A stretch of DNA of 64,000 nucleotides from Lamellibrachia columna (Eukaryota > Annelida > Polychaeta > Sabellida > Siboglinidae), in the NCBI GenBank assembly GCA_963662155.1, contig OY759273.1:27122066-27186065 (forward strand), written 5' to 3'. Made by a program: the position numbers and the translations under genes. Shown in pieces: positions 54-31,405 of the stretch (position 1 is its first letter; each line of letters begins with the position of its first letter). The notes below the pieces were generated by a model that saw nothing but the letters and a program-made list of their open reading frames with translations, was not told the DNA's origin and did no database searches.

Positions 54-482
54 ATGATTTTAATTTGTTTTCGCATTGTTGTCCTTGTTATTATTATTGT
101 GGCGTGCGGTAGTTTATGCACTGTACGATTCGCTTGGCGCAAAGTGATAGAAAAAGAAGAATGTGTACCTAATGGACATTACATTCTAATGGAATTACAT
201 TATAATGGACATTACATTCTAATGGAATTACCATTCATAATTGTTGTTGCTGTTGTCGCTGTTGATCAAATAAAGCACTTCTTCAATCTTGGCGGTAGAT
301 CATCAGGCCTCTTAGACAATATTTCCTTCCTTCGCTTTCTTCAGCTGTACGGATTAGAATGTCTACTTGATTATATACGACTACGGTGAATGGCCCAGAC
401 GCAGTCAGCCGTGAACACATGTGCTAAGTGACGCTGACCTGATTTGTTCTGCCTGTTCGAACCAAGACACGTCACAACGTTA
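54..482. repeat. Y-locus upstream flank (unit repeat piece)
   Basis: Upstream flank of the first Y RNA locus. It contains a short tandem duplication of an 'aatggacattacattctaatgg' type block (about 170-232). The same flank recurs in decayed form near 8550-8700 and, in part, near 6540-6690 (the 'cccagacgcagtcagccgtgaa' area). The 111-codon ORF here spans the tandem repeat and resembles nothing I know, so I do not call it a gene. Confidence 0.5.
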
Positions 483-702
483 ATTTGCATACAGAAGGAT
501 CAAAAAACAAATAAAACTTATGCCACCGTAACGTCCTCCTAAACACGCGTTAGCACAACTATTCATCCGTACATTCGTGCAATTCTAGTACATATGAACA
601 GCAAAATATATATTAAACGTGTGTACTAGTAAAAAAAAATGTGTAGAGCTTACTGAAACCACAGTATCAACTGCACATACGTGTCGATCTTTATATATAT
701 AT
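483..702 (+). promoter_or_regulatory. snRNA-type Pol III promoter of Y locus 1
   Basis: Octamer ATTTGCAT at 483-490 (DSE-like, about 237 bp upstream of the RNA start), a PSE-like block 'gaaaccacagtatcaactgc' near 653-674, and a TATA run at 692-702 about 20-28 bp upstream. The order and spacing match gene-external type 3 Pol III promoters as in U6, 7SK and vertebrate Y genes. Function is inferred. Confidence 0.7.
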
Positions 703-719
703 CGTCGGTATCGATCATT

Positions 720-825
720 AAGAGGTCCGGAGTAGGTGGGTTATCTACAATGAATAAGTGCTCGGCCTTGGGGTCCGACTGTAATGAAACTAAACCCCCA
801 CCGCAATATTTGACCTTATCCTTTT
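720..825 (+). ncRNA. Y RNA (stem-bulge type), locus 1, class I
   Basis: Predicted Ro60-binding Y RNA of about 105 nt. Visible parts in order: lower-stem strand GAGGUC (722-727), the conserved CCGGAGUA segment, upper-stem strand GGUGGG (735-740) followed at once by UUAUC (741-745), a loop hairpin around UCGGCC-UUGG-GGUCCGA, closing strand CCCACC (797-802), then GACCUUAUC and a TTTT terminator at 822-825. This is the known Y RNA plan: lower stem with Ro site, internal loop, upper stem, big loop, oligo-U tail. Human hY1 likewise has GGUCCGA near its 5' end and GAGUUAUC above the stem. Class I is shared only with the degenerate locus at 6920. Identification is by motif and fold; expression is not shown. 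Confidence 0.8.
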
Positions 826-899
826 GTCATTCTGATAGTCCTAAAGGTACAAAGTTTGGTCGTTTTAATCGTGCAATCATGATTTATAATACTGTATCC

Positions 900-1118
900 G
901 ACTGAATGTATGAAAATCGACGAATATTTTATGAATAGCGACTGGTCACACAGCATACAGTGTAAACATGGTGTATTCCAGTCCACACTCGAATTGAACG
1001 GATAACGGTGAACTTATATGATCAAGATATTAGAATATATATTATGTAGTTTACACAATAATATATAGCATAATTTTACGATCAAAATTTCTCATTCCCG
1101 TCGCCCGCGTCAAGCTAA
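900..1118. other. Spacer after Y locus 1
   Basis: AT-rich spacer with no ORF or repeat that I can name. It ends where the duplicated block beginning 'tgtgtggcttta' starts (1119, repeated at 3821). Confidence 0.5.
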
Positions 1119-1278
1119 TGTGTGGCTTTAGAATCAGTTCGCGAAAAATCAAACATATCAATTATTAATTACCACATGGTAGCTCGTTTGTGCAAATGTG
1201 TTATTTAGTTATGATGAAATAACCAGACAAGCTATTAAATTAAATCACATTTTTACCGAATTTAGTCAAAAAAGGCAA

Positions 1279-1745
1279 GTGGTCCGGCTCTACATACTAT
1301 AACGTTAGGCTCTACATACTATAACATTCGGCTATTCATGCTATCACAAGTGGTCCGGATCTACATACTGTAACATTCGGCTATTCATGCTTTCACCAGT
1401 GGTCCGGATCTACATACTGTAACATTCGGCTATTCATGCTTTCACCAGTGGTCCGGATCTACATACTGTAACATTCGGCTATTCATGCTTTCACCAGTGG
1501 TCCGGCTCTACATACTGTAACATTCGGCTATTCATGCTTTCACCAGTGGTCCGGCTCTACATACTGTAACATTCGGCTATTCATGCTTTCACCAGTGGTC
1601 CGGCTCTACATACTGTAACATTCGACTATTCGTGGTTTGACAAGTGGTCCGGCTCTACATACTGTAACATTCGACTATTCGTGCTTTCACCAGTGGTCCG
1701 GATCTACATACTGTAACATTCGGCTATTCGTGCTTTCACAAGTTA
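1279..1745 (+). repeat. 49-bp minisatellite, ~9 copies
   Basis: Tandem array with period 49 bp. Each unit starts 'agtggtccggatctacatac' and ends near 'attcatgctttcacc'. Units differ at a few sites (ggatct/ggctct, cggct/cgact, atgc/gtgg). A collapsed version of about 1.5 units sits in the second duplicate at 3981-4067, and a single decayed unit near 9048-9080. Confidence 0.9.
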
Positions 1746-2210
1746 CCTGATCTAATTGTCAAGCACTAATATATTTCGATGATTTTAACAATAGTATATA
1801 CACTTTTAATAAAATCAACTCCGTGAGTTTTAAAAATAGATGGCAAGTATTTCGGGGGACACTTTATATGCACACAACGTCGCCGCCCAGTTGTAACACA
1901 AGAACAAGGCACACTTCTTCATGTCGTTACAGTCCAAACATGTTCACATTTCAACTACTCGACTATATACTACTAGCTCACTTGACCAGTGGGCATTCCT
2001 TTCATCTTTTGAGTGCACATACCACACTCAACGAGATGATTCTCTCTCGGAATTCGCGTCAAACAAGACCAGGGCACCGCCACGCATTTAAGGACACACA
2101 AAATGTGACGTCTATGATATGAGAAGCGGTAAACACCAACCGACGGCAGACGCAGTGAACCGACTGACCTACTTTTAGTTCGCCAGAAGCCGTCCGCGAA
2201 TGCTGCGTTA

Positions 2211-2425
2211 ATTTGCATGGAAACGAATCACTACAGAAACAACGGATATGTTTACGTACAAGTTTCGCGTATGTCCATGAGCAAAGGTATTCAAAAGTAT
2301 ATCCCAGCAATTACAATACATAGAGGATCTACAAGTAGTCACCATTGTACGTAACACACGTGAATACAGCCCGTACATAAAGAAACCACATTATCAGCTG
2401 CAATGACCTACCCATCTATAATAAT
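2211..2425 (+). promoter_or_regulatory. Orphan snRNA-type promoter
   Basis: Octamer at 2211-2218, PSE-like 'agaaaccacattatcagctg' at 2381-2402 and a weak TATA (tctataataat, 2415-2425), with the same spacing as the Y gene promoters. No Y RNA follows; the next promoter's octamer region begins instead. It looks like a promoter duplicate that lost its gene. If active it would give a ~100-nt RNA ending at the TTTT at 2545-2548. Confidence 0.5.
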
Positions 2426-2493
2426 CACAGGCGCAACGGACTTGACCGAATGACCCATTCACCTCACCTACGCCAGCCAGAAGCAGTACACTA

Positions 2494-2731: not shown

Positions 2732-2834
2732 ACGAGGTCCGGAGTAGGTGGGTTATCTAAAAGATGAGTGCGCGGTCTTGGGGCCGACACTTCACGAAAA
2801 TTACCCCCACCACAATAATTGACCTTACATTTTT
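2732..2834 (+). ncRNA. Y RNA, locus 2, class II
   Basis: Predicted ~103-nt Y RNA. Shows GAGGUCCGGAGUA, then GGUGGG-UUAUC, a loop hairpin CGGUC-UUGG-GGCCG, closing strand CCCACC, then GACCUU and a TTTTT terminator (2830-2834). The outer lower stem is weaker than in class III because CGAGG faces CCUUACA. Near-identical to locus 4 (4961). Convergent with locus 3 on the minus strand, 0.8 kb away. Expected to be nucleo-cytoplasmic and bound by a Ro60/TROVE protein, by family knowledge. Confidence 0.8.
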
Positions 2835-3648: not shown

Positions 3649-3752
3649 AAAAGGGAAGGTCATAATTTGTGGTGGGGGGTAATGTTCATGAAACGTCGAA
3701 CCCCAGGGTCGAGCGCTTTTTTGTAAGATAACCCACCTACTCCGGACCTTCC
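3649..3752 (-). ncRNA. Y RNA, locus 3, class III
   Basis: Predicted ~104-nt Y RNA. 5' GGAAGGUC pairs perfectly with 3' GACCUUCC (8 bp lower stem). The internal loop is CGGAGUA opposite the A-rich segment before GACC. The upper stem GGUGGG/CCCACC is followed by UUAUC. The loop hairpin is UCGACC-CUGG-GGUUCGA. It ends CCCUUUU. The gene is on the minus strand with its terminator at 3649-3652. Its promoter keeps PSE and TATA but has lost the octamer because of the duplication junction at ~3820. Confidence 0.82.
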
Positions 3753-4960: not shown

Positions 4961-5063
4961 ACGAGGTCCGGAGTAGGTGGGTTATCTAAAAGATGAGTGC
5001 GCGGTCTTGGGGCCGACACTTCACGAAAATTACCCCCACCACAATAATTGACCTTACATTTTT
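4961..5063 (+). ncRNA. Y RNA, locus 4, class II
   Basis: Tandem duplicate of locus 2 with the same RNA sequence by eye: GAGGUCCGGAGUA, GGUGGG-UUAUC, hairpin CGGUC-UUGG-GGCCG, CCCACC, GACCUU and a TTTTT terminator at 5059-5063. Convergent with locus 5. The promoter is complete. Confidence 0.8.
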
Positions 5064-5874: not shown

Positions 5875-5977
5875 AAAAGGGAAGGTCATAATTTGCGGTG
5901 GGGGTAATGTTCATGAAACGTCGAACCCCAGGGTCGAGCGCTTATTTGTAAGATAACCCACCTACTCCGGACCTTCC
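5875..5977 (-). ncRNA. Y RNA, locus 5, class III
   Basis: Minus-strand class III Y RNA with GGAAGGUC/GACCUUCC lower stem, GGUGGG/CCCACC upper stem, UUAUC, hairpin UCGACC-CUGG-GGUUCGA and terminator TTTT (5875-5878). Unlike locus 3 it keeps the complete promoter, so of the two it is the better candidate for expression. Confidence 0.83.
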
Positions 5978-6002
5978 ATATACCAAATCTCTGTTATTTA
6001 TG

Positions 6003-6243
6003 TATATAGACCTTGTTAAGTGAATAGAGCTGATTTTACGGTGTCTACCGCTATAAGAGGTTGCAATTAATATTGTTTATGATAATCATTAATTCCAAAT
6101 AATTTTGATATGAAAATAACCAAACAATATTGATGAAGGTTTTTGCCGATTGACACGTGAAAATCTTCAAGACAGGTATATTTATTATTTGCTTTCCACT
6201 TCGGTTCGTATGCAAATTAACATGGCGGGCGGCAAATGGCGCC
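6003..6243 (-). promoter_or_regulatory. snRNA-type Pol III promoter of Y locus 5
   Basis: TATA 6003-6010, PSE-like ACACCGTAAAATCAGCTC 6024-6043, octamer ATGCAAAT 6210-6217, and the GC-rich GGCGCCATTTGCCGCC block at 6229-6243. Confidence 0.75.
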
Positions 6244-6299
6244 GTTGTCTGGCGATATGATTCACTACTCGCCGTCCACCAACGTATTGGATCCACGAT

Positions 6300-6688
6300 A
6301 GCGAAATATTATTTATGATGAAGACATAAACTTTCCCACAAATTAGCTAGGACATTAATATATTTTGGCTAACGTTGCCTGCTCATGGATAATGATTATA
6401 GGACCCACTACCTCCCGATCGATGACTCACGGGTCATTTGTTTACGTATAATTATCTATTATTTTATATAACGAATTGTATATGGAAATGACTGAAATAG
6501 ATGTATCAAACGTTATAATGTAATGGTAAACCAAATTGTCATACGCATTAAGAGACGACATTTTCAGCCGCACGTACGACTACCTGATTATATACAATTA
6601 CGGTAAATAGCCCAGACGCAGTCAGCCGTGAAGAACGTGTCCTGGTTCGCTCTATCTTCTCGAAGCAACACACGCTTAAGCTAAGTCA
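6300..6688. other. Spacer between divergent Y loci 5 and 6
   Basis: No gene seen. The segment 6340-6640 ('gctaggacattaatatattttgg' to the 'cccagacgcagtcagccgtg' area) recurs in reverse orientation at 21800-22130, upstream of locus 11. Confidence 0.5.
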
Positions 6689-6900
6689 ATTTGCGTACAG
6701 AAGGAACCCCAAAAGAACTAAAACTTTTGCAATCATAACGTCCTCCTAAACATGCATTAGCACAAATATTAATTCGGAACTTTCGCGTAATTCCAGCACA
6801 CAGAAAACGCCAAATACGTGTTCACCACGTGTACCGATAAACTAAATTGTCTGGTGCAATGTGAAATCACATTGTGTGCTGCACACATTTTATGTAAATA
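6689..6900 (+). promoter_or_regulatory. Decayed promoter of Y locus 6
   Basis: Octamer mutated to ATTTGCGT (6689-6696), and only a weak TATA-like 'tatgtaaata' near 6891. No convincing PSE. Confidence 0.4.
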
Positions 6901-6919
6901 TCGTCGGAGTCGTTACATT

Positions 6920-7026
6920 AATATGTCCGGAGTTGGTAGCGTTATGTACATTGAATAAGTGATCAGCCTTGGGGCCTGACTCTAATGAGACTAAGCCTCA
7001 ACCGCAATATTTGACCATATCTTTTT
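6920..7026 (+). pseudogene. Degenerate Y RNA, locus 6, class I
   Basis: Homologous to locus 1 along its length (GUCCGGAGU, GAAUAAGUGAUC, CCUUGGGGCCUGAC, ACCGCAAUAUUUGACC, then CTTTTTG at 7021-7027). The upper stem is broken: GGUAGC faces CCUCAACC, and UUAUC has become UUAUG. Its octamer and TATA have also decayed. I read it as a Y RNA pseudogene. A divergent functional copy cannot be excluded because the lower stem can still pair. Confidence 0.65.
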
Positions 7027-7029
7027 GTC

Positions 7030-7620
7030 CTCCTAGTAGTTTTAAAGGTACACAATGTATCCGTTTTTATTGTACAATCACGTTTTATGTTATCTTGCCT
7101 GGCTGAATGTTTACTAATCTGCAATAAAAAGTAAACGAAAATACGGAAAAGGCTCGTTTTCCTATTTTCGTCATGTAGTGTTCGGAACGGTTTTGTAAAT
7201 AACGGTAGGTACCGGGTTATAGCTGTACGGTGAGATGTTGCTGCCCTGGCGGCGCTACTGGAGGAGGATCATTTGTCAAGTAAACTTCAGACTTCAAGTC
7301 TGACATACTATTCGCCAACTAGGGGCGTATCCAGAATTTTTTATTTTCAGCTATATTGGAAACGGTGTTTCCGAAACAAACATCCACGAAGTACTACATT
7401 TCTCCACTCGATGGTTATATATCTTTATTTTTGCATTAGCCGGCGACGTTTTTAGTGAGGGCTGGGTCAGCACTCAATAGTATTACCGGTGTCACCTATG
7501 TAAAAAATTGGTCCCACCATTGGGGGGGCGACCGCCCCCTCGCCATCCTCCTAAACACACCGGCGTGACATCAACAGTTATTCTCCGTGATATGAGGAAT
7601 AAATGTAACAAACATATGTA
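7030..7620. other. Spacer with unit flank 'gcggcgctactggagg'
   Basis: No gene supported. A stretch at 7235-7310 (CCTGGCGGCGCTACTGGAGG, then the 'acttcaagtc' area) recurs near 18430-18520 and 30215-30300, always about 0.2-0.45 kb on the 3' side of a minus-strand class IV Y gene. Confidence 0.5.
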
Positions 7621-7624
7621 GTTA

Positions 7625-7657
7625 TAAGTATTCAGTAATATTATTACTGAATACTTA
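7625..7657. repeat. Perfect 16-bp inverted repeat
   Basis: Arms TAAGTATTCAGTAATA (7625-7640) and its exact complement (7642-7657) around one base. Lies 40 bp past the terminator of Y locus 7. Confidence 0.9.
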
Positions 7658-7696
7658 TTACTACATGGTGTGTTTGATAACTACAATAAACAATAC

Positions 7697-7801
7697 AAAA
7701 AGGAAGGTCATAGTTTGCGGTGGGGGTAGAGTTCATTTAACGTCTGACCCCAGGGCCAGAGCGCTTTATTCGTAAGATAACCCACCTACGCCGGACCTCC
7801 C
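7697..7801 (-). ncRNA. Y RNA, locus 7, class IV
   Basis: Minus-strand ~105-nt Y RNA. GGGAGGUCCGGCGUA, upper stem GGUGGG-UUAUC, loop hairpin UCUGGCC-CUGG-GGUCAGA (7 bp), CCCACC, then GACCUUCC and TTTTT (7697-7701). Class IV is the most numerous class (six intact copies). Its loop stem differs from class III at both strands while keeping pairing. Full promoter upstream. Confidence 0.83.
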
Positions 7802-7822
7802 GAAATACGTTTCTAGATAATA

Positions 7823-8078
7823 CATATATAGACCAAGTCAAGTTAACAGTGCTGGTTTTATGGTGTCTGTACCCATAGCTGTATGCCAGTTTGTTTTGTG
7901 TATGATAATCACTATTTCCGTATGAATTTCATATTATCATATTAAATCAACACAATAATATCCATGAATACAAACGCTGATCGAGCCATAAAAATACTTC
8001 AAGATACGAATATTTGTTCTTTGCTTTTCACTTTACTTCCTATGCAAATTGGCCTCACGGCCGGCGGTGAATGGCGCC
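7823..8078 (-). promoter_or_regulatory. snRNA-type Pol III promoter of Y locus 7
   Basis: TATA TCTATATATG 7823-7832, PSE-like ACACCATAAAACCAGCAC 7848-7866, octamer ATGCAAAT 8042-8049, GC block GGCGCCATTCACCGCCG 8062-8078. Confidence 0.75.
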
Positions 8079-8079
8079 T

Positions 8080-9337
8080 TTGTCGTGCGACCCGGTTCAC
8101 AGCTCACCATCTTGCAACGTATTGAATAGTTGTCATCCCTTGTTTCTGATCTGTGACACGACAACAAAAATGAAGTTACAGAACGTATTAACTAAACACC
8201 CAGCTAACGTTTCGTGTCTTCCTTTCGCATGGTACTGACCAAGTCCTACTTACGCGCGATAACCGAGTCGCAAACCTCAGCACTCTAGCTTGGCCTTGCA
8301 CCTGTATTGCGCCGTCGACGAACTATAACGTCACCAAACAAGGCTGTCAGCAACCCGGCAGTTGGATAATGTTCTCAGCTTCTAAGGCTTCTGGGTGATG
8401 TGACTCTCTACCGTAGCCCACGGGATCTGATATTGCCATCATGGTATGTCGGTTAAAATTGTACGGGTGAACTTTTTTTGTAAATGTATCTCTAATTATC
8501 ATTGTTGTGTGTTGATGTTTATTTACACTTTTGTTTGCGTGTATACACAATGAACATTATATTCTAAAGGAGTTACTATTCCCAATTATCTGTTTTTCGT
8601 ATTACGACCCAGTCTCAGTCAGCTGTGAATAAATGGGCCAAATGACGTTAGCATTAGTCACACTACTACGATAATTTGTGTACAAAGGTCCACGAAACAT
8701 AGGCATAACATTAAACCTACGTAACATTCTCAAATATGTTGATTAACAAAAACGTCCCGTTCAATATTCGCTTATTTCTAGCACACAATACAGTAATGAG
8801 AGTATTGTTTTACATTTTATGCATAGTGGGCGAAACCTCCCCGAGCTCTGTAATACAAATTATCGATTGCACATGCACGAGCCGTTTGATCACGCCAATC
8901 CAAGCTTTAAAGTTCCTTCCTCGATACATTTTCGTGCTCGCAAAAATTCAAACCAATCTACTACGACATGCTAGCTCGTCTGTGCAAGTGGATGATTTTT
9001 GTTTTGATGAAATCATCAGACAAACTATTAAATGCTTTTAAAATCGGCGGTGGTCCGGCTCTATATACTAGGCTATTCACAGGTTCGTATGTTACCCGAT
9101 CTAATTATCGAAGTCAATTATTTCGATGATTTTAACAATTGTATGCACACTTTCAATCAAATTAACTGAATGAGTTTTAATGATAGATGTCAAGTATTGC
9201 AGGTGGCGTTTTATATGTTTACAACGTCGCCGTTTGTCAGTACAGTCCAAACATGGCCAAATTACTCTACTAACACATGGGATCAGTGAGTATAGCTTTG
9301 GTCTTTGGGGTCCAGCTACTTAACCCATGTGGCACAA
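8080..9337. other. Decayed Y-unit flanks, no gene
   Basis: 8080-8420 is the far upstream flank shared with the class IV loci at 18720, 25347 and 30489. 8540-8700 matches 165-500 (upstream flank of locus 1) with the octamer decayed to 'aatttgtg'. 9040-9250 matches 1700-1950, including one relic minisatellite unit. No Y RNA is left where one would be expected (~8900). Confidence 0.55.
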
Positions 9338-9790
9338 TTGAATTGAAATTGATTTTATTTGGTATACGAATATATGAATACAAAATACAGGTGACAACAA
9401 CAGTTCACACCAGGACGCCAGGAAAACTAGACAACTAGTTGTCTGTGGCAACTGGATGCCCAAAAGATTTCTTGCAGACCACAATATAAAGATATATCGA
9501 TAAAACATATAAACGATTCAAATAGTCATTGTGTGTGCAATAATCGCTTACATAAATTTCACAATGTATGTTATTATGTGTCCATTGGTGTACATTTAAG
9601 TTAATAATGGCCTTTATAAATGTAACTGGGGAATCGCATGGAGACGGGAAATGGTGATTTCCTTTATTTTGTATAACAAAAACTATATAAAAAAAACCTG
9701 TAAAACATACAAAAATATTATTACTACATGCACTACTACAGTGGTTACACATGATTATTAATCAACAGAGTCAAAACATCTATTCCCTGC
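9338..9790 (-). mobile_element. LINE 3'-end-like fragment
   Basis: Read on the minus strand it ends CCAAATAAAATCAATTTC followed by a short AATTCAATT repeat, the usual look of L2/CR1-type LINE 3' tails. No coding sequence is recognisable. The assignment rests on the tail only. Confidence 0.35.
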
Positions 9791-9849
9791 ATAACATTGA
9801 TACGTAATTATTATGTATCTCAGACACCAAATAGCAGGCTGGCACCTGT

Positions 9850-10066
9850 GGTATTTCAAATCAAGTTTATTCAGACACCGCATATCTCTAAAAATAGAAT
9901 CAGGGGTGTTTACAATAAATAAAATAAATTAATTAATTAAATATATTACATTAGTGAATATAATTATTACAATACAGGCATTACATGAGATAACACATAT
10001 ATACATATGCATACATGTACATATATACATACACATACATACACACATACATATATATATACATAT

Positions 10067-21440: not shown

Positions 21441-21459
21441 TTACCGAGAACATGCTGTC

Positions 21460-21599: not shown

Positions 21600-22215
21600 A
21601 TTCAGTAATGTTTGTTACACATATTCCCCATATCACGAAGAATAACTGATGGTGAACAAGTATTTGGCGTTTCCTCGAGTTAATATTCGTGCTAATGCAT
21701 GTTTAGGAGGACGTTATGGTTGCATAAGTTTTAGTTCTTTTTGGGATCCTTCTGTACGCAAATTTACTTAGATTAAGCGCGTGTTGCATCGAGAAGACAG
21801 AGCTAATCAGGACACTTTCTTCACGGCTGACTGCGTCTGGGCTATTTACCCTAATGGTCTATAATCAGGTAGTCGTACGTGCGGCTGAAATTGTCGTCTC
21901 TTAATGCGTATGGCAATTTGGTTTACCATGGTACCGGTCATTACATTATAACGTTTGATACATCTATTTCAGTCATTTCCATATACAATTCGTTATATAA
22001 AATAATAGATAATTATACGCAAACAAATGACCCGTGAGTCATCGATCGGGAGGTAGTGGGTCCTATAGTCATTTTCCATGAGCAGGCAACGTTAGCCAAA
22101 ATATATTAATGTCCTAGCTAAATTGTGGGAAAGTTTATGTCTTCATCATAAATAATATTTCGCTGTCGTGGATCCAATACGTTGGGGGACGGCGAGTAAT
22201 GAATCATATCGCCAG
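21600..22215. other. Spacer between Y loci 10 and 11
   Basis: No gene seen. Carries an inverted copy of the 6340-6780 unit flank (for example GACGCAGTCAGCCGTGAAG in complement near 21825). Confidence 0.55.
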
Positions 22216-22219
22216 ACAA

Positions 22220-22468
22220 CGGCGCTATTCGCCGCCCGCCCGCCATGTCAATTTGCATACGAACATAAGTGGAAAGCAAATAATAAATATACCTGTCTTG
22301 AAGACTTTTAAGTATCAATCGGCAAGGACACTCATAGATATTGTTGGGTAATTTTCATATCAAAATTATTTGGAATTAATGATTACCATACACAATATTA
22401 ATTGCAACCTCTTATAGCGGTAGACACCGTAAAATCAGCTCTATTCACTTAACAAAGTCTATATACGT
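22220..22468 (+). promoter_or_regulatory. snRNA-type Pol III promoter of Y locus 11
   Basis: GC block CGGCGCTATTCGCCGCC 22220-22236, octamer ATTTGCAT 22251-22258, PSE-like ACACCGTAAAATCAGCTC 22424-22441, TATA TCTATATACG 22459-22468. The cleanest example in the window. Confidence 0.8.
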
Positions 22469-22490
22469 GAGTAACAGAGATTTGGTGTAT

Positions 22491-22594
22491 GGAAGGTCCG
22501 GAGTAGGTGGGTTATCTTACAAAATAAGCGCTCGACCCTGGGGTTCGACGTTTCATGAACATTACCCCCACCGCAAATTATGACCTTCCCTTTT
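22491..22594 (+). ncRNA. Y RNA, locus 11, class III
   Basis: Reference copy for class III. GGAAGGUC (22491-22498) pairs with GACCUUCC (22582-22589), giving 8 bp. GGUGGG (22506-22511) pairs with CCCACC (22567-22572). UUAUC follows directly. The loop hairpin is UCGACC-CUGG-GGUUCGA, and CTTTT (22591-22594) ends the gene. No internal run of four T. Complete promoter. Most similar to loci 3 and 5, ~17 kb away. Confidence 0.85.
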
Positions 22595-23278
22595 AATTTA
22601 AAAAAAATATATATTTTGCATTAAATTACATCTCCCTACTCATGTTATTTGCTACAGCTTCTTAAAAAAAATTAACAAGCTATTTTCCGGAATTATAAAT
22701 AGTGTTTCAGTCGGCGGTTACTAATGCGATTTCTGTACAGTAAAGTAGCACATACATTTCGAAAATTCAACGAAGACATCATCCACTGGTGCGTGCTTCT
22801 TTAGCGATGTATAAACAAAACGGTCACGGCGCGGGTCGTTTGCCTGAAAACTTCGTAACATCACAAACCTACCTCGTATAAGCAGAAACGCGTAATTTCC
22901 TAAGATAACCTTCTTAGCGCTAAGTAAGCCTTCGCAGTCGTACACGAGGCTGAAAATGTCGTCTCACAATGCGTAAAACAATTTGGTTTACCATCGTACT
23001 GGTCAATACATTATAACGTTTGATACAAATGTTACAGTCAATTCTATATAACATTCATTATATAAACTAATATATAATTATACCCAAACATATCGTCCGT
23101 GAATCATCTGGAGGGGGTGGGTATACTCCATCAGCAGGTAACGTTAGCCAAAATAAATAAAGGTCCTAGCTAATTTGCGGGAATGTGTATGTCTTCATCA
23201 TAAATAATAATCGCTCTCGTTGATTCGATGCGGTGGAGGGCGGGCTGGTCGGCGAGCAGTGATCCATATCGCCAGAAA

Positions 23279-23531
23279 ACGGCGCCATTCGCCGCCACCC
23301 AGCGACGGCAATTTGCATATATACGAACTGAAGTGGAAAGCAAATAATAAATACAGCTGTCTTGAAGCTTTTCATGTGTCAAACGACAGTCGCGTTCGTC
23401 AATGTTGTTGGGTAATCTTCATATCACAATTATTTGGAAGTAATGATTACCATATGCTACATTAAGTGCACATTATTGTAGCTATAAACATCGTAAAATC
23501 AGCTGTATTCACTTGACAAGGTCTATATATG
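23279..23531 (+). promoter_or_regulatory. Promoter of truncated Y locus 12A
   Basis: GC block CGGCGCCATTCGCCGCC 23279-23296, octamer ATTTGCAT 23311-23318, PSE-like ACATCGTAAAATCAGCTG 23487-23504, TATA TCTATATATG 23522-23531. All parts are kept although the gene is broken. Confidence 0.7.
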
Positions 23532-23552
23532 AATAACAGATATCTGCTTTAT

Positions 23553-23585
23553 GGAAGGTCCGTAGTAGGTGGGTTATCTTACACA
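23553..23585 (+). pseudogene. Truncated Y RNA 5' fragment, locus 12A
   Basis: Only the 5' third survives: GGAAGGUCCGUAGUAGGUGG then GUUAUCUUAC. After 23585 the sequence is unrelated: no CCCACC, no GACC strand and no terminator. The next TTTT is at 23917-23920, so transcription from the intact promoter would give a ~365-nt RNA. Confidence 0.75.
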
Positions 23586-23868
23586 TGCTAAGCAATCGGC
23601 CCTGTGAGTCCTACGCTTCAGCGGAACAAATATAATAGCGGCAATGAAGAACCGAAACCTCTGGAAAGAAATCATCATGTCACCACGTTAAGTGAATGAC
23701 ATAAGTAAGTAGTAATCTTCCGCAATTATAAATCTCCGATTTCTAATACGATTTATGTACAGTAAAGTAGTACATACATTTCGAAAATTCTGCCAAGACA
23801 TCATCCCGTCGTGCATATACTTCTTTAGCAATGAATGTATAACAAAACAGTCTCTGCACGGGTCATTT

Positions 23869-24033
23869 GCTTTAAAATGCCTCGTAACGCAACAAATCGT
23901 CGATATTATTGGTCAATTTTCATGGCAAACGTATTTGGAATTAATGATTACCATACGCAGCATTACTTGCACTCTCTTGTAGCTGGAGACAGCGTAATAT
24001 CAGCTCTGTTCTCTTGAAAAGGTCTATGTGATT
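23869..24033 (+). promoter_or_regulatory. Weak promoter of Y locus 13
   Basis: Octamer decayed to ATTTGCTT (23869-23876), PSE-like GACAGCGTAATATCAGCTC 23988-24006, TATA decayed to TCTATGTG (24023-24030). Confidence 0.45.
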
Positions 24034-24060
24034 TTATTAATGAAAGAGAACTCACATTTG

Positions 24061-24157
24061 GGAGGTCCGGGGTAGGTGGGTTATCTTGCAAACAGAACGC
24101 TCTGGCCCTGGGGTCAGACGTTACATGAATTTTACCCCCACCGCAACCTTTCTTTTT
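24061..24157 (+). pseudogene. Degenerate Y RNA, locus 13, class IV-like
   Basis: Keeps GGAGGUCCGGGGUA, GGUGGG-UUAUC, hairpin UCUGGCC-CUGG-GGUCAGA and CCCACC. It has lost 7 nt of the 3' internal loop and lower stem (GCAACCUUUC for GCAAACUAUGACCUUCC) and has gained an internal TTTT at 24130-24133, which should stop Pol III before the 3' strand is made. Likely non-functional. Duplicated as locus 15. Confidence 0.7.
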
Positions 24158-24289
24158 TTATTTTTTAAATATATTTTTGCAATGAAACACATCTGCCTAT
24201 CCATGGTATTTGTTGCAGCTTCTTAAAGAATGATACTAACAAGCTATTTTCCGCAATTTTACAGTGTTACAACAGGCGATTGATAATGC

Positions 24290-24720
24290 AATTTGTGTAT
24301 AGTAGCACATGTCAAAAATGCAACCAAGACACGCCTGGTGACATTCTCGCTAGCCAGGGGTGGCAGTAGTGCTACAGTACCCCTGGAAGATCTGTTTAGA
24401 CGTAGATTTGTCAGATTATCCAACGTAAATTGTGGATGTACGCTGAATTATTTGTACTTAGTCCCACTTCCACGTCGATGCGTTTTGGGGAACTACACGC
24501 GTTCGCGTCCAAACTTCAAAGAGCGTTCCCACGAAATGCTCATCATTACCTGTCCGACCAGCGACGACGGATCCACCAATTAGAGTTAAGTTCCCGTATG
24601 TGAGCCCAGTAGATCTCAGCGAGCAATATGATTGGTTAACAAAACAACTGAAAGTTGCACGTTTCAGCTGATTAATCAGCCAGGCACTGATATAGTCAGA
24701 AGCCACCTAGCGGCGATGAT
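24290..24720. repeat. Y-cluster spacer block, copy 2
   Basis: Duplicate of 29100-29530 and homologous to 18113-18480. Carries ORFs of 96 and 82 codons on opposite strands that persist in both recent duplicates but are not shared with the older copy. No known domain seen. Confidence 0.6.
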
Positions 24721-24781
24721 GGGGGGCACCAAGGGAGGCACTGACTTCTTTCTTGAAATACTCTCTCTCCCTGATTGTAAC

Positions 24782-24782
<1 letters not shown>

Positions 24783-24812
<30 letters not shown>

Positions 24813-25190
24813 AGATAAGATAAGATAAGATAAGATAAGATAAGATAAGATAAGATAAGATAAGATAAGATAAGATAAGATAAGATAAGATAAGATAATA
24901 CTTTATTGTCTCAACAATGAAATTGAGAAATTTGTCTCGGGTAAGAACAGACATGACTGCAATATATACATAAAACCATTCTATAAAAGCGGCAAATAAG
25001 TAGACAGTGAAACAGACTAAAAATAATATTAATAATATTAAAAATAAATACACACATAAATAATGATTAGACAATATAATACATTGCATACACATTACTT
25101 GTTATGCTAGGAACGACAAGTGACACTGTTGCAGCAGGCATCATGAGTCGAGTTGTTTAATGGACAGTGGCACAAATGAGTATCTGTATC
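24783..25190 (-). mobile_element. LINE 3' end with (TTATC)n tail, copy A
   Basis: On the minus strand the 3' UTR ends CAATAAAGTATTATC followed by a long (TTATC)n tail (24783-24897, written GATAA on plus). 5'-truncated. The coding end present in copy B is deleted here (junction near 25197). Confidence 0.65.
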
Positions 25191-25242
25191 TGTTAAGCCT
25201 ACTACTTATAACATGGCGTGTGTGATAACTAGAAAAAATACG

Positions 25243-25347
25243 AAAAGGGAGGTCATAGTTTGCGGTGGGGGTAGAGTTCATTTAACGTCTGTCCCCAGGG
25301 TCAGAGCGCTTTATTCGTAAGATAACCCACCTACGCCGGACCTCCCG
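25243..25347 (-). ncRNA. Y RNA, locus 14, class IV
   Basis: Minus-strand Y RNA whose lower stem is GGGAGGUC/GACCUCCC, perfect 8 bp. Compared with class III GGAAGGUC/GACCUUCC, an A-U pair is replaced by G-C, a compensatory change. GGUGGG/CCCACC, UUAUC and loop stem CUGACCCUGGGGACAG-like; TTTT at 25243-25246. Complete promoter. Confidence 0.83.
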
Positions 25348-25366
25348 ACTAAACGTTCTCGGTAAT

Positions 25367-25613
25367 ACATATATAGAACCAGTCACGTCGGTAGTGCTGG
25401 TTTTATGGTGTATATACCTACAGGAATATGCCAATTTGTTTTGTGTATGGTAATCTTCAATTCCGTATGAATTTTACATGAGATTGACACCAGAATTTCC
25501 ACGAAAGCAGTGGCTTATTGATCCATGAAAATACTCCAAGACACGAATATTTATTCTTTGCTTCTCATTTTATTTCCTATGCAAATTGCGTCGCTGCCAG
25601 CGGCGAATGGCGC
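25367..25613 (-). promoter_or_regulatory. snRNA-type Pol III promoter of Y locus 14
   Basis: TATA TCTATATATG 25367-25376, PSE-like ACACCATAAAACCAGCAC 25394-25412, octamer ATGCAAAT 25579-25586, GC block GGCGCCATTCGCCG 25600-25613. Confidence 0.75.
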
Positions 25614-25619
25614 CTTTGT

Positions 25620-26260
25620 CGCGCAACCCGATTCACCGCTCATCGTCTTGCAACGTATTTATTGAATTGCTATTACTCGTTGTTTCTGATCCATGACACG
25701 ACAACAAAAATGAAGTTACAAAACGTGTCGCGTGTTAACTAAACACCCAGCTAACGTTTTGTGCCTTTCTTTCGTATGGTACATAGCAAATCCTACTTAC
25801 GTGAGTTGACCGAGTCGCCGAGCTGCTACGCCTACGACGCCCACTAGTAGTACAGTACTGGTAGTACTACAGTCTACACGTGCTGTTGGTCATGAATTGG
25901 GTCGATCAAAACAAATATCAGCACCCCTGCTTCTGTCTCGCGCCTTCGATGAACTAACATCACCAAGCCAGGCTGTCAATAACTCGTCAGCTGGATAATG
26001 TTCGCAGCTTCTAAAGCTCCTGGCTGAGTACGACTCTCCGTACATGTCTTCAATTTTTTGTCTTGTCGGTCGCCAGAGTGGATGGAATTCCCCGACAGGC
26101 GCGTGATTCAAAACGAGGCTTACTATATGCCATGCAGTTGGAAATCCCCCGCTGACTTCGTTCCGAGTGGCAAGTTACTGCTAATTTCAGTTAGTTGACA
26201 TGAATTAATAAAACAATATAATTAAGTAAATATGTTCTTCTAATTACAATTAGTTTACCT
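25620..26260. other. Far-upstream flank of Y locus 14
   Basis: No gene recognised. A 73-codon ORF (25890-26111, minus) recurs in copy B but has no known motif. A short 'agtagtacagtactggtagtact' tract lies near 25846-25870. Confidence 0.5.
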
Positions 26261-26261
26261 A

Positions 26262-26298
26262 CTCAACGTTTCGGATATCTTTGGTAGCCTTCACCAGG
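26262..26298 (-). mobile_element. Penelope-like terminal motif, hammerhead-like
   Basis: Complement reads CCTGGTGAAGGCTACC-AAA-GATATCC-GAAACGTTGAG. This resembles the minimal hammerhead ribozyme core known from Penelope-like pLTRs (CUGAUGA - stem II - GAAA), with CUGAUGA changed to CUGGUGA. Probably inactive. Confidence 0.45.
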
Positions 26299-26929
26299 AA
26301 ATTAATTCTGTGGACGGGTCACTATTTATTTTCCAATTCAATTGCCATTGCCATTGGCGACAATGTTATGTAACATTTATTTTCACAGTGTTCGCAAATT
26401 AGTTTTTTTAATATTCTGAAAATCATCTATGTTAATATTTATGACATCAGTCTGCTGAAAAAAAATCGTCAAATTCTGACTTTTTGTTCCTACGGAAAAT
26501 CAACTTACCAGATGCTCCCCATGAAATGACATCCAAAACAATTGCATTGCGCCTTCATGCGCCAGGGATCCTACAGTCACTGGCACACGCTTAAGTTGAT
26601 AGCCAGTCACTAGATATTTTTTTTATCTGGGCACAGCATAAGTGCTGTTGTCCTGAAATATGGTCATATACCTTTTAAAAATAATTTTCTAGTCTCTAGA
26701 AAAAATTAAACTAAAAAATAACAAAAGGGGTACCGTCTCAAAATCACCGGCACTTAATTCGTATGCCATGAACACGGAAGTAAAACAGTGACCCGTCCCC
26801 TTCTGGACGACAAGTTCTTCTTCGTTGTCACAACTACATAGTCTAGTTTCAGAAATATGATGTATCAGCAGATATTTTTGCACGGTGATGAGAGTCCATT
26901 GTCATCTGTAATAGCAAATGCAAGCTGAA

Positions 26930-27437
26930 ACTATGGAAGAGATATGTGATGGATGTAGTAAGGAAGGGATGTGAGCAAGAACCGACACATCATTTGAACA
27001 GCATACACACAACAGGTAGTATAAAGTTCACGTACGATGAAGAGAGCGATAAGACCCTGTCTTTTTTGGATACGCATGTGGCTCGGAAGGAGGATGGAAC
27101 AGTGAAACTCCTAGAAAAATTCTCGGAAGAAGACACACAGACCAGTATCTGAACTTTACTTCTCACCATCCGCTGCATCAGAAACTGGGGGTCATCAAAA
27201 CGTTACTGGTGAGATGCAACAACATTGCATCAGAGCCGGAGGACATAGAGCAAGAGGAGGACGTGGAACACATCACCGAGGCACTAGTACTATGCGGGTT
27301 GGACTGGACAAATAAGATTAAATAACAGCATATTCAGAAGAGAAAGACCAAGGAAGGATGTTCCAGTGACAAGAACGTGGAAAAATCCAAAGGCATGGTC
27401 ACCATCCTGTATGTCAAAGGAGTAGCAAAATCTCTAC
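26930..27437 (+). pseudogene. Penelope-like element relic, copy A (no GIY-YIG)
   Basis: Encodes LWKRYVMDVVRKGCEQE, then HHLNSIHTTGSIKFTYDEES, TLSFLDTHVARKEDGTVKLL, a frameshift near 27140, then LNFTSHHPLHQKLGVIKTLL and VRCNNIASEPEDIEQEEDVE. This is the end of the Penelope-like RT and the linker. The catalytic YxDD is YVMD. The element is cut at the A/B duplication junction, so the GIY-YIG endonuclease is absent. The RT core before KRYV is also absent. Confidence 0.8.
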
Positions 27438-28091
27438 AGCATCTGCCTATTCATGTTATTTGCTACAGCTTCTTAAAAAAATATTAACAAGCTATTTTCC
27501 GGAATTATAAATAGTGTTTCAGTCGGCGGTTACTAATGCGATTTCTGTACAGTAAAGTAGCACATACATTTCGAAAATTCAACGAAGACATCATCCACTG
27601 GTGCGTGCTTCTTTGGCGATGTATAAACAAAACGGTCACGGCGTGGGTCGTTTGCCTGAAAACTTCGTAACATCACAAACCTACCTCGTATAAGCAGAAA
27701 CGCGTAATTTCCTAAGATAACCTTATCAGCGCTAAGTAAGCCTTCGCAGTCGTACACGAGGCTGAAAATGTCGTCTCACAATGCGTCAAACAATTTGGTT
27801 TACCATCGTACTGGTCAATACATTATAACGTTTGATACAAATGTTACAGTCAATTCTATATAACATTCATTATATAAACTAATATATAATTATACCCAAA
27901 CATGTCGTCCGTGAATCATCTGGAGGGGGTGGGTATATTCCATCAGCAGGTAACGTTAGCCAAAATAAATAAAGGTCCTAGCTAATTTGCGGGAATGTGT
28001 ATGTCTTCATCATAAATAATAATCGCTCTCGTTGATTCGATGCGGTGGAGGGCGGGCTGGTCGGCGAGCAGTGATCCATATCGCCAGAAAA

Positions 28092-28339
28092 CGGCGCCAT
28101 TCGCCGCCACCCAGCGACGGCAATTTGCATACGAACTGAAGAGGAAAGCAAATAATAAATACAGCTGTCTTGAAGCTTTTCATGTGTCAAACGACAGTCG
28201 CGTTCGTCAATGTTGTTGGGTAATCTTCATATCACAATTATTTGGAATTAATGATTACCATATGCTACATTAAGTGCACCTTATTGTAGCTATAAACATC
28301 GTAAAATCAGCTGTATTCACTTGACAAGGTCTATATATG
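28092..28339 (+). promoter_or_regulatory. Promoter of truncated Y locus 12B
   Basis: GC block 28092-28108, octamer ATTTGCAT 28123-28130, PSE-like ACATCGTAAAATCAGCTG near 28295-28312, TATA TCTATATATG 28330-28339. Confidence 0.7.
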
Positions 28340-28360
28340 AATAACAGAGATCTGCTTTAT

Positions 28361-28393
28361 GGAAGGTCCGTAGTAGGTGGGTTATCTTACACA
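28361..28393 (+). pseudogene. Truncated Y RNA 5' fragment, locus 12B
   Basis: Duplicate of locus 12A: 5' part only (GGAAGGUCCGUAGUAGGUGG then GUUAUCUUAC), no 3' strand, intact promoter. Confidence 0.75.
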
Positions 28394-28672
28394 TGCTAAG
28401 CAATCGGCCCTGTGAGTCCAACGCTTCAGCGGAACAAATCTAATAGCGGCAATGAAGAACCGAAACCTCTGGAAAGAAATCATCATGTCACCACATTAAG
28501 TGAATGACATAAGTAAGTAGTAATCTTCCGCAATTATAAATCTCCGATTTCTAATACGATTTATGTACAGTAAAGTAGTACATACATTTCGAAAATTCTG
28601 CCAAGACATCATCCCGTCGTGTATATACTTCTTTAGCAATGAATGTATAACAAAACAGTCTCTGCACGGGTC

Positions 28673-28838
28673 ATTTGCTTTAAAATGCCTCGTAACGCCA
28701 CAAATCGTCGACTTTGTTGGTAAATTTTCATGTCAAACGTATTTGGAATTAATGATTACCATACGCACCATTACTTGCACTCTCTTGTAGCTGGAGACAA
28801 CGTAATATCAGCTCTGTTCTCTTGAAAAGGTCTATGTG
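28673..28838 (+). promoter_or_regulatory. Weak promoter of Y locus 15
   Basis: Octamer decayed to ATTTGCTT 28673-28680, PSE-like GACAACGTAATATCAGCTC 28796-28814, TATA decayed to TCTATGTG 28831-28838. Confidence 0.45.
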
Positions 28839-28868
28839 ATTTCATTAATGAAAGAGAATTCACATTTG

Positions 28869-28966
28869 GGAGGTCCGGGGTAGGTGGGTTATCTTGCAAA
28901 CAGAACGCTCTGGCCCTGGGGTCAGACGTTACATGAATTTTACCCCCACCGCAACCTTTCTTTTTT
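28869..28966 (+). pseudogene. Degenerate Y RNA, locus 15, class IV-like
   Basis: Duplicate of locus 13 with the same defects: 3' internal loop and lower stem shortened, and an internal TTTT at 28938-28941 ahead of CCCACC. Confidence 0.7.
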
Positions 28967-29099
28967 AATTTTTTTAATATATTTTTGCAATGAAACACAT
29001 CTGCCTACCCACGTTATTTGTTGCAGCTTCTTGAAGAATGATACTAACAAGCTATTTTCCGCAATTTTACAGTGTTACAACCGGCGACTGATAATGCAA

Positions 29100-29530
29100 T
29101 TTGTGTATAGTAGCACATGTCAAAAATGCAACCAAGACACGCCTGGTGACATTCTCGCTAGCCAGGGGTGGTAGTAGTACTACAGTATCCCTGGACGATA
29201 TGTTTAGACGTAGATTTGTCAGATTATCCAACGTAAATTGTGGATGTACGCTGAATTATTTGTACTTAGTCCCACTTCCACGTCGATGCGTTTTGGGGAA
29301 CTACACGCGTTCGCGTCCAAACTTCAAAGAGCGTTCCCACGAAATGCTCATCATTACCTGTCCGACCAGCGACGACGGATCCACCAATTAGAGTTAAGTT
29401 CCCGTATGTGAGCCCAGTAGATCTCAGCGAGCAATATGATTGGTTAACAAAACAACTGAAAGTTGCACGTTTCAGCTGATTAATCAGCCAGGCACTGATA
29501 TAGTCAGAAGCCACCTAGCGGCGATGATGG
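29100..29530. repeat. Y-cluster spacer block, copy 3
   Basis: Duplicate of 24290-24720; see that entry. Ends where the LINE tail begins. Confidence 0.6.
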
Positions 29531-29588
29531 GGGCACCAAGGGAGGCGCTGACTTCTTTCTTGAAATGCTCTCTCTCCCTGATTGTAAC

Positions 29589-29589
<1 letters not shown>

Positions 29590-29619
<30 letters not shown>

Positions 29620-30200
29620 ATACTTTATTGTCTCAACAATGAAATTGAGAAATTTGTCTCGGGTAAGAACAGACATGACTGCAATATATACATAAAACCA
29701 TTCTATAAAAGCGGCAGATAAGTAGACAGTGAAACAGACTAAAAATAATAGTAATAATATTAAAAATAAATACACACATAAATAATGATTAGACAATATA
29801 ATACATTGCATACACATTACTTGTTATGCTATGAACGACAAGTGACACTGTTGCAGCAGGCATCATGAGTCGAGTTGTTTAATGGACAGTGGCACAAATG
29901 AGTATTTGTATCTGTTAAGCCTGCACGGAGGAGTTCTATAGGGTCTTTCAGAAGGCAGGAGCTGAAATTCATTGTGTAAAACATGTTTGGTATCATAAAT
30001 AATCTTGACTGACTGTCTTCTTAATGTCTGTTCAAAAATCACCTGAAGGGAGATCATGGGAGATGTGGAATATGTTATTTTCATGGCAGTTCTCATTAAG
30101 CGAGAAAGCTGTGAGTTCAACTATTCCTCTGGGAGTTCATTCCAGAGGCGATCAGTAAGAGTGTACTTTTATGACCAGCAGTGTTTGAGGCAGCTGTGTT
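29590..30200 (-). mobile_element. LINE 3' end with ORF2 C-terminus, copy B
   Basis: Minus strand: the ORF at 30120-29863 encodes VIFEQTLRRQSVKIIYDTKH, then LHNEFQLLPSERPYRTPPCR and LNRYKYSFVPLSIKQLD, a C-terminus seen in several non-LTR ORF2 families (FQLLPSGRRYR..C..NR...SF.P). Followed by a 3' UTR with CAATAAAGTATTATC and a short (TTATC)n tail at 29590-29620. Strongly 5'-truncated. Confidence 0.7.
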
Positions 30201-30384
30201 GTGATATGTTGATGCCCTGGCGGCTCTTCGCATTACTGGAGGAGGATAATTCATCAGGTAAACTTCAGACTTCAAGTCTTTGACATATACTATTCACCAA
30301 TAGTTATTCTCCACAATATGGAGACTGACGGTAACAAACATACTACTTATAACATGGCGTGTGTGATAACTACAAAAAAATACG

Positions 30385-30489
30385 AAAAGAGAGGTCATAG
30401 TTTGCGGTGGGGGTAGAGTTCATTTAACGTCTGTCCCCAGGGTCAGAGCGCTTTATTCGTAAGATAACCCACCTACGCCGGACCTCCCG
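30385..30489 (-). ncRNA. Y RNA, locus 16, class IV
   Basis: Minus-strand duplicate of locus 14. Lower stem GGGAGGUC/GACCUCUC (one G-U pair), GGUGGG/CCCACC, UUAUC, terminator TTTT (30385-30388). Full promoter. Last Y locus of the cluster: nothing like it is seen from 31 kb to the end. Confidence 0.83.
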
Positions 30490-30508
30490 AGTAAACGTTC
30501 TCGGTAAT

Positions 30509-30756
30509 ACATATATAGAACCAGTCACGTCGATAGTGCTGGTTTTATGGTGTATATACCTACAGGAATATGCCAATTTGTTTTGTGTATGGTAATCGTC
30601 ATTTCCGTATGAATTTTACATGAGATTGACACCAGAATTTCCATGAAAGCAGTGTCTTATTGATCCATGAAAATACTCCAAGACACGAATATTTATTCTT
30701 TGCTTCTCATTTTATTTCGTATGCAAATTGCGTCGCTGCCAGCGGCGAGTGGCGCC
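30509..30756 (-). promoter_or_regulatory. snRNA-type Pol III promoter of Y locus 16
   Basis: TATA TCTATATATG 30509-30518, PSE-like ACACCATAAAACCAGCAC 30535-30553, octamer ATGCAAAT 30721-30728, GC block (GGCGCCACTCGCCGC) 30742-30756. Confidence 0.75.
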
Positions 30757-30759
30757 TTT

Positions 30760-31405
30760 GTCGCGCAACCCGATTCACCGCTCATCGTCTTGCAACGTAT
30801 TTATTGAATTGCTATTACTCGTTGTTTCTGATCTATGACACGACAACAAAAATGAAGTTACAAAACGTGTCGCGGGTTAACTAAACACCCAGCTAACGTT
30901 TCGTGCCTTTCTTTCTTATGGTACATAGCAAATCCTACTTACGTGAGATGACCGAGTTGCCGAGCTGCTACGCCTACGACGCACACTAGTACTAGTAGTA
31001 GTACTGGTGGTAGTACTACAGTCTACACGTGCTGTTGGTCATGAATTGGGTCGATCAAAACAAATATCAGCACCCCTGCTTCTGTCTCGCGCCTTCGATG
31101 AACTAACATCACCAAGCCAGGCTGTCAATAACTCGTCAGCTGGATAATGTTTGCAGCTTCTAAAGCTCCTGGCTGAGTACGACTCTCCGTACATGCCTTC
31201 AATTTTTTGTCTTGTCGGTCGCCAGAGTGGATGGAATTCCCCGACAGGCGCGTGATTCAAAACGAGGCTTACTATATGCCACGCAGTTGGAAATCCCCCG
31301 CTGACTTCGTTACGAGTGGCAAGTTACTGCTAATTTCAGTTAGTTGACATGAATTAATAAAACAATATAATTAAGTAAATATGTTCTTCTAATTACAATT
31401 AGTTT
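30760..31405. other. Far-upstream flank of Y locus 16
   Basis: Duplicate of 25620-26260. No gene seen. Confidence 0.5.

Follow-up and report, generated by a model that had tools for sequence, protein, structure and literature searches.

Candidate Y RNA genes multiplied into three arrays in the siboglinid annelid Lamellibrachia columna, alongside numerous Ro60 genes

Y RNAs are known chiefly from vertebrates and nematodes, in sets of a few to about 20 genes. For a 64-kb stretch of the siboglinid annelid Lamellibrachia columna (contig OY759273.1, here C13, positions 27,122,066-27,186,065; the whole stretch is called the window), an original prediction made from the letters alone had proposed 17 Y RNA loci, 12 of them intact, between positions 480 and 30760. 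Are these loci genuine Y RNA genes, how far do they extend, and does the genome hold a matching set of Ro60 genes? Our analysis shows that the Y-like loci are present in the window as counted and that the array is larger than had been stated. On sequence evidence, the loci are very probably RNA polymerase III (Pol III) genes of the Y RNA/stem-bulge RNA (sbRNA) class, multiplied into three arrays alongside an expansion of Ro60 genes.

Copies in the window and across the genome

With up to three mismatches, the pattern GGTCCGGNNTAGGTGGGTTATC finds 16 sites in the window, compared with none in 100 shuffles, and the signature common to these sites is the core GGTCCGG..TAGGTGGGTTATC. A 17th, decayed copy was picked up by a covariance model in which that copy had itself been included, which brings the number to the 17 loci predicted. 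Twelve of them are intact, again as predicted: they have all six pairs of the upper stem, six to eight of the eight pairs of the lower stem, GACC on the 3′ side, and TTTT as terminator (Table 1). Besides the decayed copy, two copies have lost the 3′ half and two the 3′ side of the lower stem; for the last two, a script gives seven of eight pairs for the 5′ end, but the partner consists of T-runs only. The five coordinate pairs put forward earlier for checking match the covariance-model spans to within a few bases.

The predicted extent, however, was too small. A pattern search of the 880-Mb genome (30 contigs) places the array at C13:27,045,892-27,152,550 (about 106 kb); it begins 76 kb upstream of the window, which holds its 3′ part. 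Its copies number 49 or 51 by pattern (which misses 27092194), 50 by the covariance model R1, and 52 when two copies without the 3′ half are added to the latter. A run of 5000 N at C13:27,117,066-27,122,065 ends at the window start and may hide further Y copies. On C14, model R1 finds a second array of 17 shorter copies, from 35,681,201 to 35,742,440, to which pattern scans add C14:35,741,786, the pseudogene 35,746,883, and 35,660,609, giving 20 near 35.66-35.75 Mb. A third array (C14:35,200,721-35,226,939), of which 201 bases were read, has 35 copies, and a single copy lies at C14:35,484,834. Together, the three arrays and the single copy come to 108 loci, decayed ones counted, and such genome-wide counts are lower bounds. 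Because model R1 derives from 12 window copies, its scores are partly circular for C13-class copies but not for the C14 classes. One copy (L040:4159) is 5′-deleted. The Y pattern has no match in viral contigs and a single locus in bacterial genome contigs (L066), which lacks any R1 match.

Misassembly of tandem repeats that are almost the same might have raised the copy number. Such an error would fit two observations: toward the 5′ end of the C13 array, five units of 1345 bp each are 99.4-99.9% identical, and the N run lies directly upstream of the window. Many copies of the window and of the 35.66-35.75 Mb array nevertheless differ in sequence and in flanks and are therefore separate loci, and we consider inflation of this kind improbable.

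As the original prediction had itself allowed, the copies might instead be a Y-derived short interspersed nuclear element (SINE) or retropseudogenes scattered through the genome. A few copies do lie beyond the arrays: L050 (C6) and L051 (C14) contain most of the RNA, L005 (C5) holds the 5′ part only, and a dispersed repeat (L052-L054, variant L064) bears the Y promoter and 20 nucleotides (nt) from GGTCC on. Yet the exact core GGTCCG-N6-GTGGGTTATC occurs 56 times in 880 Mb and 54 of these sites are inside the arrays (reversed control, none), which does not bear out a genome-wide SINE. Dispersed full-length copies were not found, L050 and L051 being the two that come near full length. Most array copies examined have upstream promoter elements at fixed distances, which retrocopies would lack, and model R1 has no match in any of the four dispersed repeats read. 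A SINE origin thus has hardly any probability left.

The dispersed repeat (C5:54.016, C6:34.307, and C8:30.216 Mb; variant at C5:30.776 Mb) joins the proximal sequence element (PSE) and TATA box of the Y genes, with the 20 nt mentioned, to GGGTTAG-type sequence; 22 of its bases, GGTCCGGAGTAGGTGGGTTAGG, are common to ten places. Possibly, this repeat is a mobile element that has taken up a Y promoter. A short tandem repeat of GTGGTCCGG units (window positions 1265-1745 and about 3981-4060) also has GGTCCGG in common with the Y RNA, and model R1 finds no match in it.

Fold, family assignment, and promoters

The copies form four sequence classes and two size classes. RNAs of the C13 class are about 103 nt long and have a hairpin within the loop, whereas the C14 forms are compact (about 64-72 nt where read): class A (64-65 nt) has the upper stem GUGCUGG/CCAGCAC, with GUG-CAC at the stem base, and class B (71-72 nt) has GUUGGUGG with CCACCACGAC. 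Class C (about 70 nt; lower stem UGGAGGUC/GACUUCCA) is represented by one copy read, the fold of which (z score of -3.0) was equalled by none of 200 shuffles. GGUCCG is kept in all four classes, and the upper stem GGUGG/CCACC is found in the C13, B, and C classes. The 5′ and 3′ ends pair into a lower stem around a single bulged C in GGUCCG in 12 of the 17 window copies. The loop opens with UUAUC in all 49 C13 copies of the pattern set, in 17 of 17 C14 copies, and in L067; the exceptions are window copy 6924 (UUAUG), C13:27092194 (UUGUC), and the pseudogene C14:35746883 (UUAAC). The lower stem with its bulged C binds Ro60 in known Y RNAs, the U-tail binds La, and the GUG-CAC upper stem acts in replication initiation (PMC4726728, PMC4450293, PMC11277228). 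The motifs of all three, Ro60 site, La site, and GUG-CAC, are present in the sequences collected here.

Covariation supports the predicted fold. A model-fitted alignment was made of 67 matches, which form 34 distinct rows. Its cells pair in 94.5% of cases, and none of 500 shuffles equals either this value or the covariation score. There are 36 cells with changes on both sides, compared with 10.2 in shuffles (reached by 0 of 500), and nine pairs with both-side changes (2 of 500); the number of pair types is reached by 20 of 500. When columns are slid by one to three positions, pairing drops to 36-51%. An unfitted MAFFT alignment of 12 window copies gives 95.2% pairing (0 of 500) and a covariation score reached by 4 of 500 shuffles.

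At curated cut-offs, Rfam has no match in the 64-kb window, and nothing was found at these cut-offs in the C14 sequences scanned. The top score with RF00019 (Y_RNA) is 35.8 bits, compared with a cut-off of 38, so the genes are outside RF00019 as Rfam draws it; with RF01656 (nematode sRNA; cut-off, 38) it is 23.8 bits, likewise too low. When E values up to 10 are allowed, Y_RNA matches 7 of the 17 window copies. Around 22491, in a stretch of 201 bases, Y_RNA ranks first among 4227 families and is the single one with an E value of 0.1 or less (4.6e-06), and the alignment spans the model from end to end, with GGUCCG, GUGGGUUA, CCCAC, and UGAC in register. The covariance-model search suggested in the original prediction thus gave a significant local match, although the curated cut-off was never reached. 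A B-class copy scores 29.4 bits with Y_RNA, again the top among 4227 families; eight C13-class copies at L037 score 26.8-28.7 bits; and an A-class copy beside the B-class copy matches the nematode model only. Scores with the nematode model are 19.9-23.8 bits overall (19.9 bits for this A-class copy; 19.9-21.7 bits for it together with 7797 and 3748 on the minus strand) and are below those with Y_RNA where both matched. Non-Y matches with E values below 0.01 (mir-297, mir-1277, and sno_ZL1) fall in simple repeats at 9982-10258 and 57823-58090 and were rejected.

Most copies examined have three upstream elements: the octamer ATTTGCAT, at about -240 (class B, about -220); a PSE at about -65; and a TATA box at about -32. 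The yardstick for the PSE was independent of the Y genes: in four U6 genes from this genome, its ACCACA is at -63 every time. Among 43 Y upstream regions tested (26 from C13 and 17 from C14), 33 match the U6 PSE with at most 4 mismatches in 14 positions, compared with 2.3% of shuffled stretches. The octamer, with one mismatch allowed, is found at 46 of 51 copies on C13 and at 17 of 18 on C14 versus 7-8% of random windows. Octamer, PSE, TATA box, and a 3′ stem with TTTT occur together in 42 of 51 copies on C13 and in 17 of 18 on C14 (59 of 69 examined, with PSE references drawn partly from Y genes and C13 copy 27092194 outside the set); the 42 include the decayed copy 6924, because the test is blind to the upper stem, and six copies with a near-octamer at -249. 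Gene-external Pol III promoters and T-run terminators, as expected of the Y RNA/sbRNA class, are therefore present.

Sequence constraint was assessed in 129 diverged pairs, out of the 153 among 18 C13 copies. Flanks 250-600 bases away align at 0.46-0.47, the level of random segments (0.45-0.46), whereas the RNA aligns at 0.945 in its 5′ half, 0.75 in the loop, and 0.77 in its 3′ half (length-matched random segments, 0.42-0.44). The RNA has therefore been kept while its surroundings drifted. The stretch from PSE to TATA box aligns at 0.61, compared with 0.44 for random sequence.

Several observations weigh against the assignment to Y RNAs. No copy reaches the Rfam cut-off in scans of the window, L037, and L042-L049; 8 of the 17 window copies match neither Y_RNA nor the nematode model at E values up to 10, and 7797 and 3748 (minus strand) match the nematode model only. 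The C13 and A classes carry GGUCCGG instead of GGUCCGA. Folds of single copies vary (z scores of -2.4 to +1.3 among 13 folded), and the unfitted alignment is weak in two measures, with both-side pairs reached by 22 of 500 shuffles and pair types by 132 of 500. As for the promoters, the copies are related by descent, so that the 43 upstream regions are not independent trials, and 10 of the 43 exceed four mismatches from the U6 PSE: nine copies on the right-hand side of the C13 array, where the stretches are CACCATAAAATCAG-like, and one C14 copy that lacks a promoter. Among the 33 within this limit, 27125814 has its match at -78, away from the usual position. The octamer near -240 is absent from the four U6 upstream regions read, its 30-base stretch is weakly conserved (0.51 versus 0.42 for random sequence), and in six tandem copies the sole near-octamer, at -249, is perhaps due to chance.

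The Rfam scores under the cut-off would also fit an unrelated Pol III stem-loop RNA that has come to look like Y RNAs through convergence. Such an origin would have to account for a long common core (GGUCCG..GUGGGUUAUC), a bulged C, UGAC on the 3′ side, and a U-tail all together, in a genome that also has Ro60 genes, and we regard it as very unlikely. Fold, covariation, shared motifs, Pol III promoter anatomy, and, at the copies where Y_RNA scores, end-to-end matches all argue for the Y RNA family proposed originally.

Ro60 genes and the question of dosage

A profile search with TROVE (PF05731) gave 49 matches in the genome, which, merged by frame, comprise 18 stop-free TROVE/Ro60 frames of 525-699 codons. 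Ten of the 18 are in one stretch of C11 (27.58-27.79 Mb), and the others are at C11:18.25 Mb (one) and on C5 (three), C9 (two), C2 (one), and C7 (one). Further matches include six of apparent two-exon form and one multi-exon group on C4, with stops in some copies. Three paralogs were read; they are full length, share 55-60% mutual identity, and combine TROVE and vWFA in one protein, as judged by mutual alignment and, for one of them, by comparison with human RO60. In this last paralog, the human RO60 match (1.6e-151) covers both TROVE and vWFA, and H187 is aligned with a histidine; in mouse cells, Ro60 H187S is reported to lack Y3 binding (PMC11277228). In one of the three paralogs, N replaces the first D of the metal ion-dependent adhesion site (MIDAS) motif. 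The ratio of nonsynonymous to synonymous divergence (dN/dS) is about 0.16-0.21 in three pairs, with dS near saturation.

A midpoint-rooted Ro60 tree was built from 44 rows, three from this genome and 41 hand-picked from the best 120 matches. In it, a single clade (100/100) unites 29 rows, none of them named as non-siboglinid, and divides into three main branches. Proteins of both Ridgeia and Lamellibrachia are found in every branch, and the spread therefore began before these lineages split; our own rows are in two of the three. The best 120 matches to the Ro60 searched include five Ridgeia and three Lamellibrachia entries, and multiple Ro60 genes are thus not unique to this species. The Ridgeia genome paper does not use the term TROVE in its main text. 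Protein P0138, a TROVE protein assigned to the metagenome-assembled genome of a Chromatiales bacterium, is 72% identical to worm Ro60 and is perhaps host DNA in a symbiont assembly.

We propose that tandem, inverted, and segmental duplication spread the Y genes into three arrays, each gene having a gene-external Pol III promoter of its own (octamer, PSE, and TATA box) and a T-run terminator. The transcript would fold so that its ends pair around the bulged C, which is the Ro60 site in known Y RNAs, followed by the GUG/CAC-bearing upper stem and a loop opening with UUAUC. La would bind the 3′ U-tail, and the RNAs would load onto the likewise multiplied Ro60 paralogs; the Ro60-Y particles would then serve RNA quality control and Ro60 transport. 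From the sequences we infer transcription, processing, Ro60 and La binding, and function of these RNAs, and from the copresence of the two expansions in one genome we infer that they are connected. A further idea is a Ro system of many proteins by many RNAs, in which siboglinid Ro60 paralogs carry different Y classes and the surveillance particles are perhaps tuned to foreign or symbiont RNA; at present this seems doubtful.

A simpler explanation is dosage alone: ordinary tandem arrays, kept alike by unequal exchange, would supply one abundant RNA, and the number of Ro60 genes would be unrelated. U6 genes are also tandem in this genome (C13:3,522,060-3,553,594, 19 copies, one per 1746 bp), nematode sbRNAs are reported as tandem arrays in most of eight species (PMC5745555), and the 1345-bp units are nearly identical. 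Against this reading, the Y copies fall into four classes by sequence and two by size, the 49 C13 copies have 22 distinct 98-mers, and the Ro60 genes are numerous and diverged, with the low dN/dS and near-saturated dS given above. Dosage alone is a real possibility, albeit one with less than an even chance, and we rank it just after, and close behind, the reading of Y RNA genes multiplied alongside Ro60.

A set of about 108 Y loci next to many Ro60 genes would, to our knowledge, exceed every other Ro-Y gene set. Our literature search found no paper on annelid Y RNAs, as judged by title and abstract and with subscription papers mostly outside its coverage. The genome offers a natural test case for whether Y RNA classes pair off with Ro60 paralogs, for the contribution of a loop reduced from about 50 to 10-20 nt, and for the role of the Ro particle. 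It also illustrates that the Rfam Y_RNA cut-off can overlook entire arrays.

Features of the window and comparison with known systems

At least 11 of the 17 window copies are part of segmental duplications, of which two are tandem and one is inverted (Table 1). Some copies are young, as shown by the 1345-bp units and by five 3.2-kb units that differ by 0.5-2.2% substitutions.

Table 1. Y RNA copies and duplicated segments in the window
Feature	Position	Strand	Core position	Remarks
Y RNA gene, intact	720..824	+	724	Octamer ATTTGCAT 483-490, PSE-like ~657-670, TATA ~691-700
Y RNA gene, intact	2732..2833	+	2736	Lower stem 6/8
Y RNA gene, RNA intact	3649..3752	-	3748	PSE-like and TATA present, without octamer
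Y RNA gene, intact	4961..5062	+	4965	Lower stem 6/8; 2.2-kb tandem duplicate of 2732-2833
Y RNA gene, intact	5875..5977	-	5973	2.2-kb tandem duplicate of 3649-3752
Decayed Y RNA copy	6920..7025	+	6924	Without upper stem; fold at shuffle level
Y RNA gene, intact	7697..7801	-	7797	
Y RNA gene, intact	12477..12581	-	12577	
Y RNA gene, intact	18617..18721	-	18717	Both-side changes at pairs of loop hairpin
Y RNA gene, intact	21460..21564	+	21464	Rfam Y_RNA 35.1 bits
Y RNA gene, intact	22491..22594	+	22495	Top window Rfam Y_RNA score, 35.8 bits
Promoter of 22491..22594	octamer 22251-22258, PSE-like ~22425-22438, TATA ~22460	+		
Y RNA gene, 5′ half	23553..23600	+	23557	Promoter kept, 3′ half gone
Y RNA copy	24060..24157	+	24064	Without 3′ lower stem; octamer not at usual place
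Y RNA gene, intact	25242..25346	-	25342	
Y RNA gene, 5′ half	28361..28408	+	28365	4.8-kb duplicate of 23553 copy
Y RNA copy	28868..28965	+	28872	Without 3′ lower stem; duplicate of 24060-24157
Y RNA gene, intact	30384..30488	-	30484	5.1-kb duplicate of 25242-25346
Tandem segmental duplication	22664..32377			Units ~4.7-5.15 kb apart, 98-99% identical in pieces compared
Inverted duplication	5945..22523			Arms ~5945-6776/21676-22523, 92-97% complementary, three pieces

Nine open reading frames of the window and its flanks were compared with Pfam, and the sole host exon recognized among them is a TRI4_N (PF23135) exon (L035:5466-5771, C13 at about 27.0275 Mb) upstream; with regard to synteny with the vertebrate Y cluster, EZH2 and PDIA4, which we take to be its neighbors, were not searched for. 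A long interspersed nuclear element-type element at window positions 41668-44401 (minus strand) carries, in two frames that overlap, domains of an endonuclease and a reverse transcriptase. U6 or U6-like copies are found near the Y arrays, at C13:27,237,750 and at C14:25.15 and 33.51-33.53 Mb. COX1, on the 16.8-kb contig C30, contains 11 TGA codons in frame and is open under genetic code 5; among its best 120 matches, the closest named one is from Siboglinidae (86%), with other annelids following at 78% and a further record at 94%, which agrees with a siboglinid annelid.

Y or related RNAs have been reported in vertebrates, nematodes, two insects, amphioxus, and some prokaryotes (PMC4726728). 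With vertebrate Y RNAs (RF00019), the genes described here share a length of about 100 nt (C13 class), an end-pairing lower stem with a bulged C, an upper stem, and a U-tail, as well as own Pol III promoters and clustered genes (the last two according to the same source). They differ in number, with about 108 loci versus the one to four genes given there for vertebrates, in having compact classes of 64-72 nt, and in scores below the Rfam cut-off. With nematode sbRNAs, for which RF01656 (ceN72-3_ceN74-2) is one model, they share UUAUC at the 5′ end of the loop, the bulged C, an A/GUG-CAC/U upper stem, and a large number of genes (PMC4450293, PMC5745555); Caenorhabditis elegans has at least 18-19 sbRNA genes (PMC4450293, PMC4726728), compared with about 108 loci here. 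The predicted proteins share with metazoan Ro60/TROVE proteins the combination of TROVE and vWFA, full length, and close similarity to human RO60, and differ from them in that there are 18 stop-free frames and that one paralog has an altered MIDAS motif.

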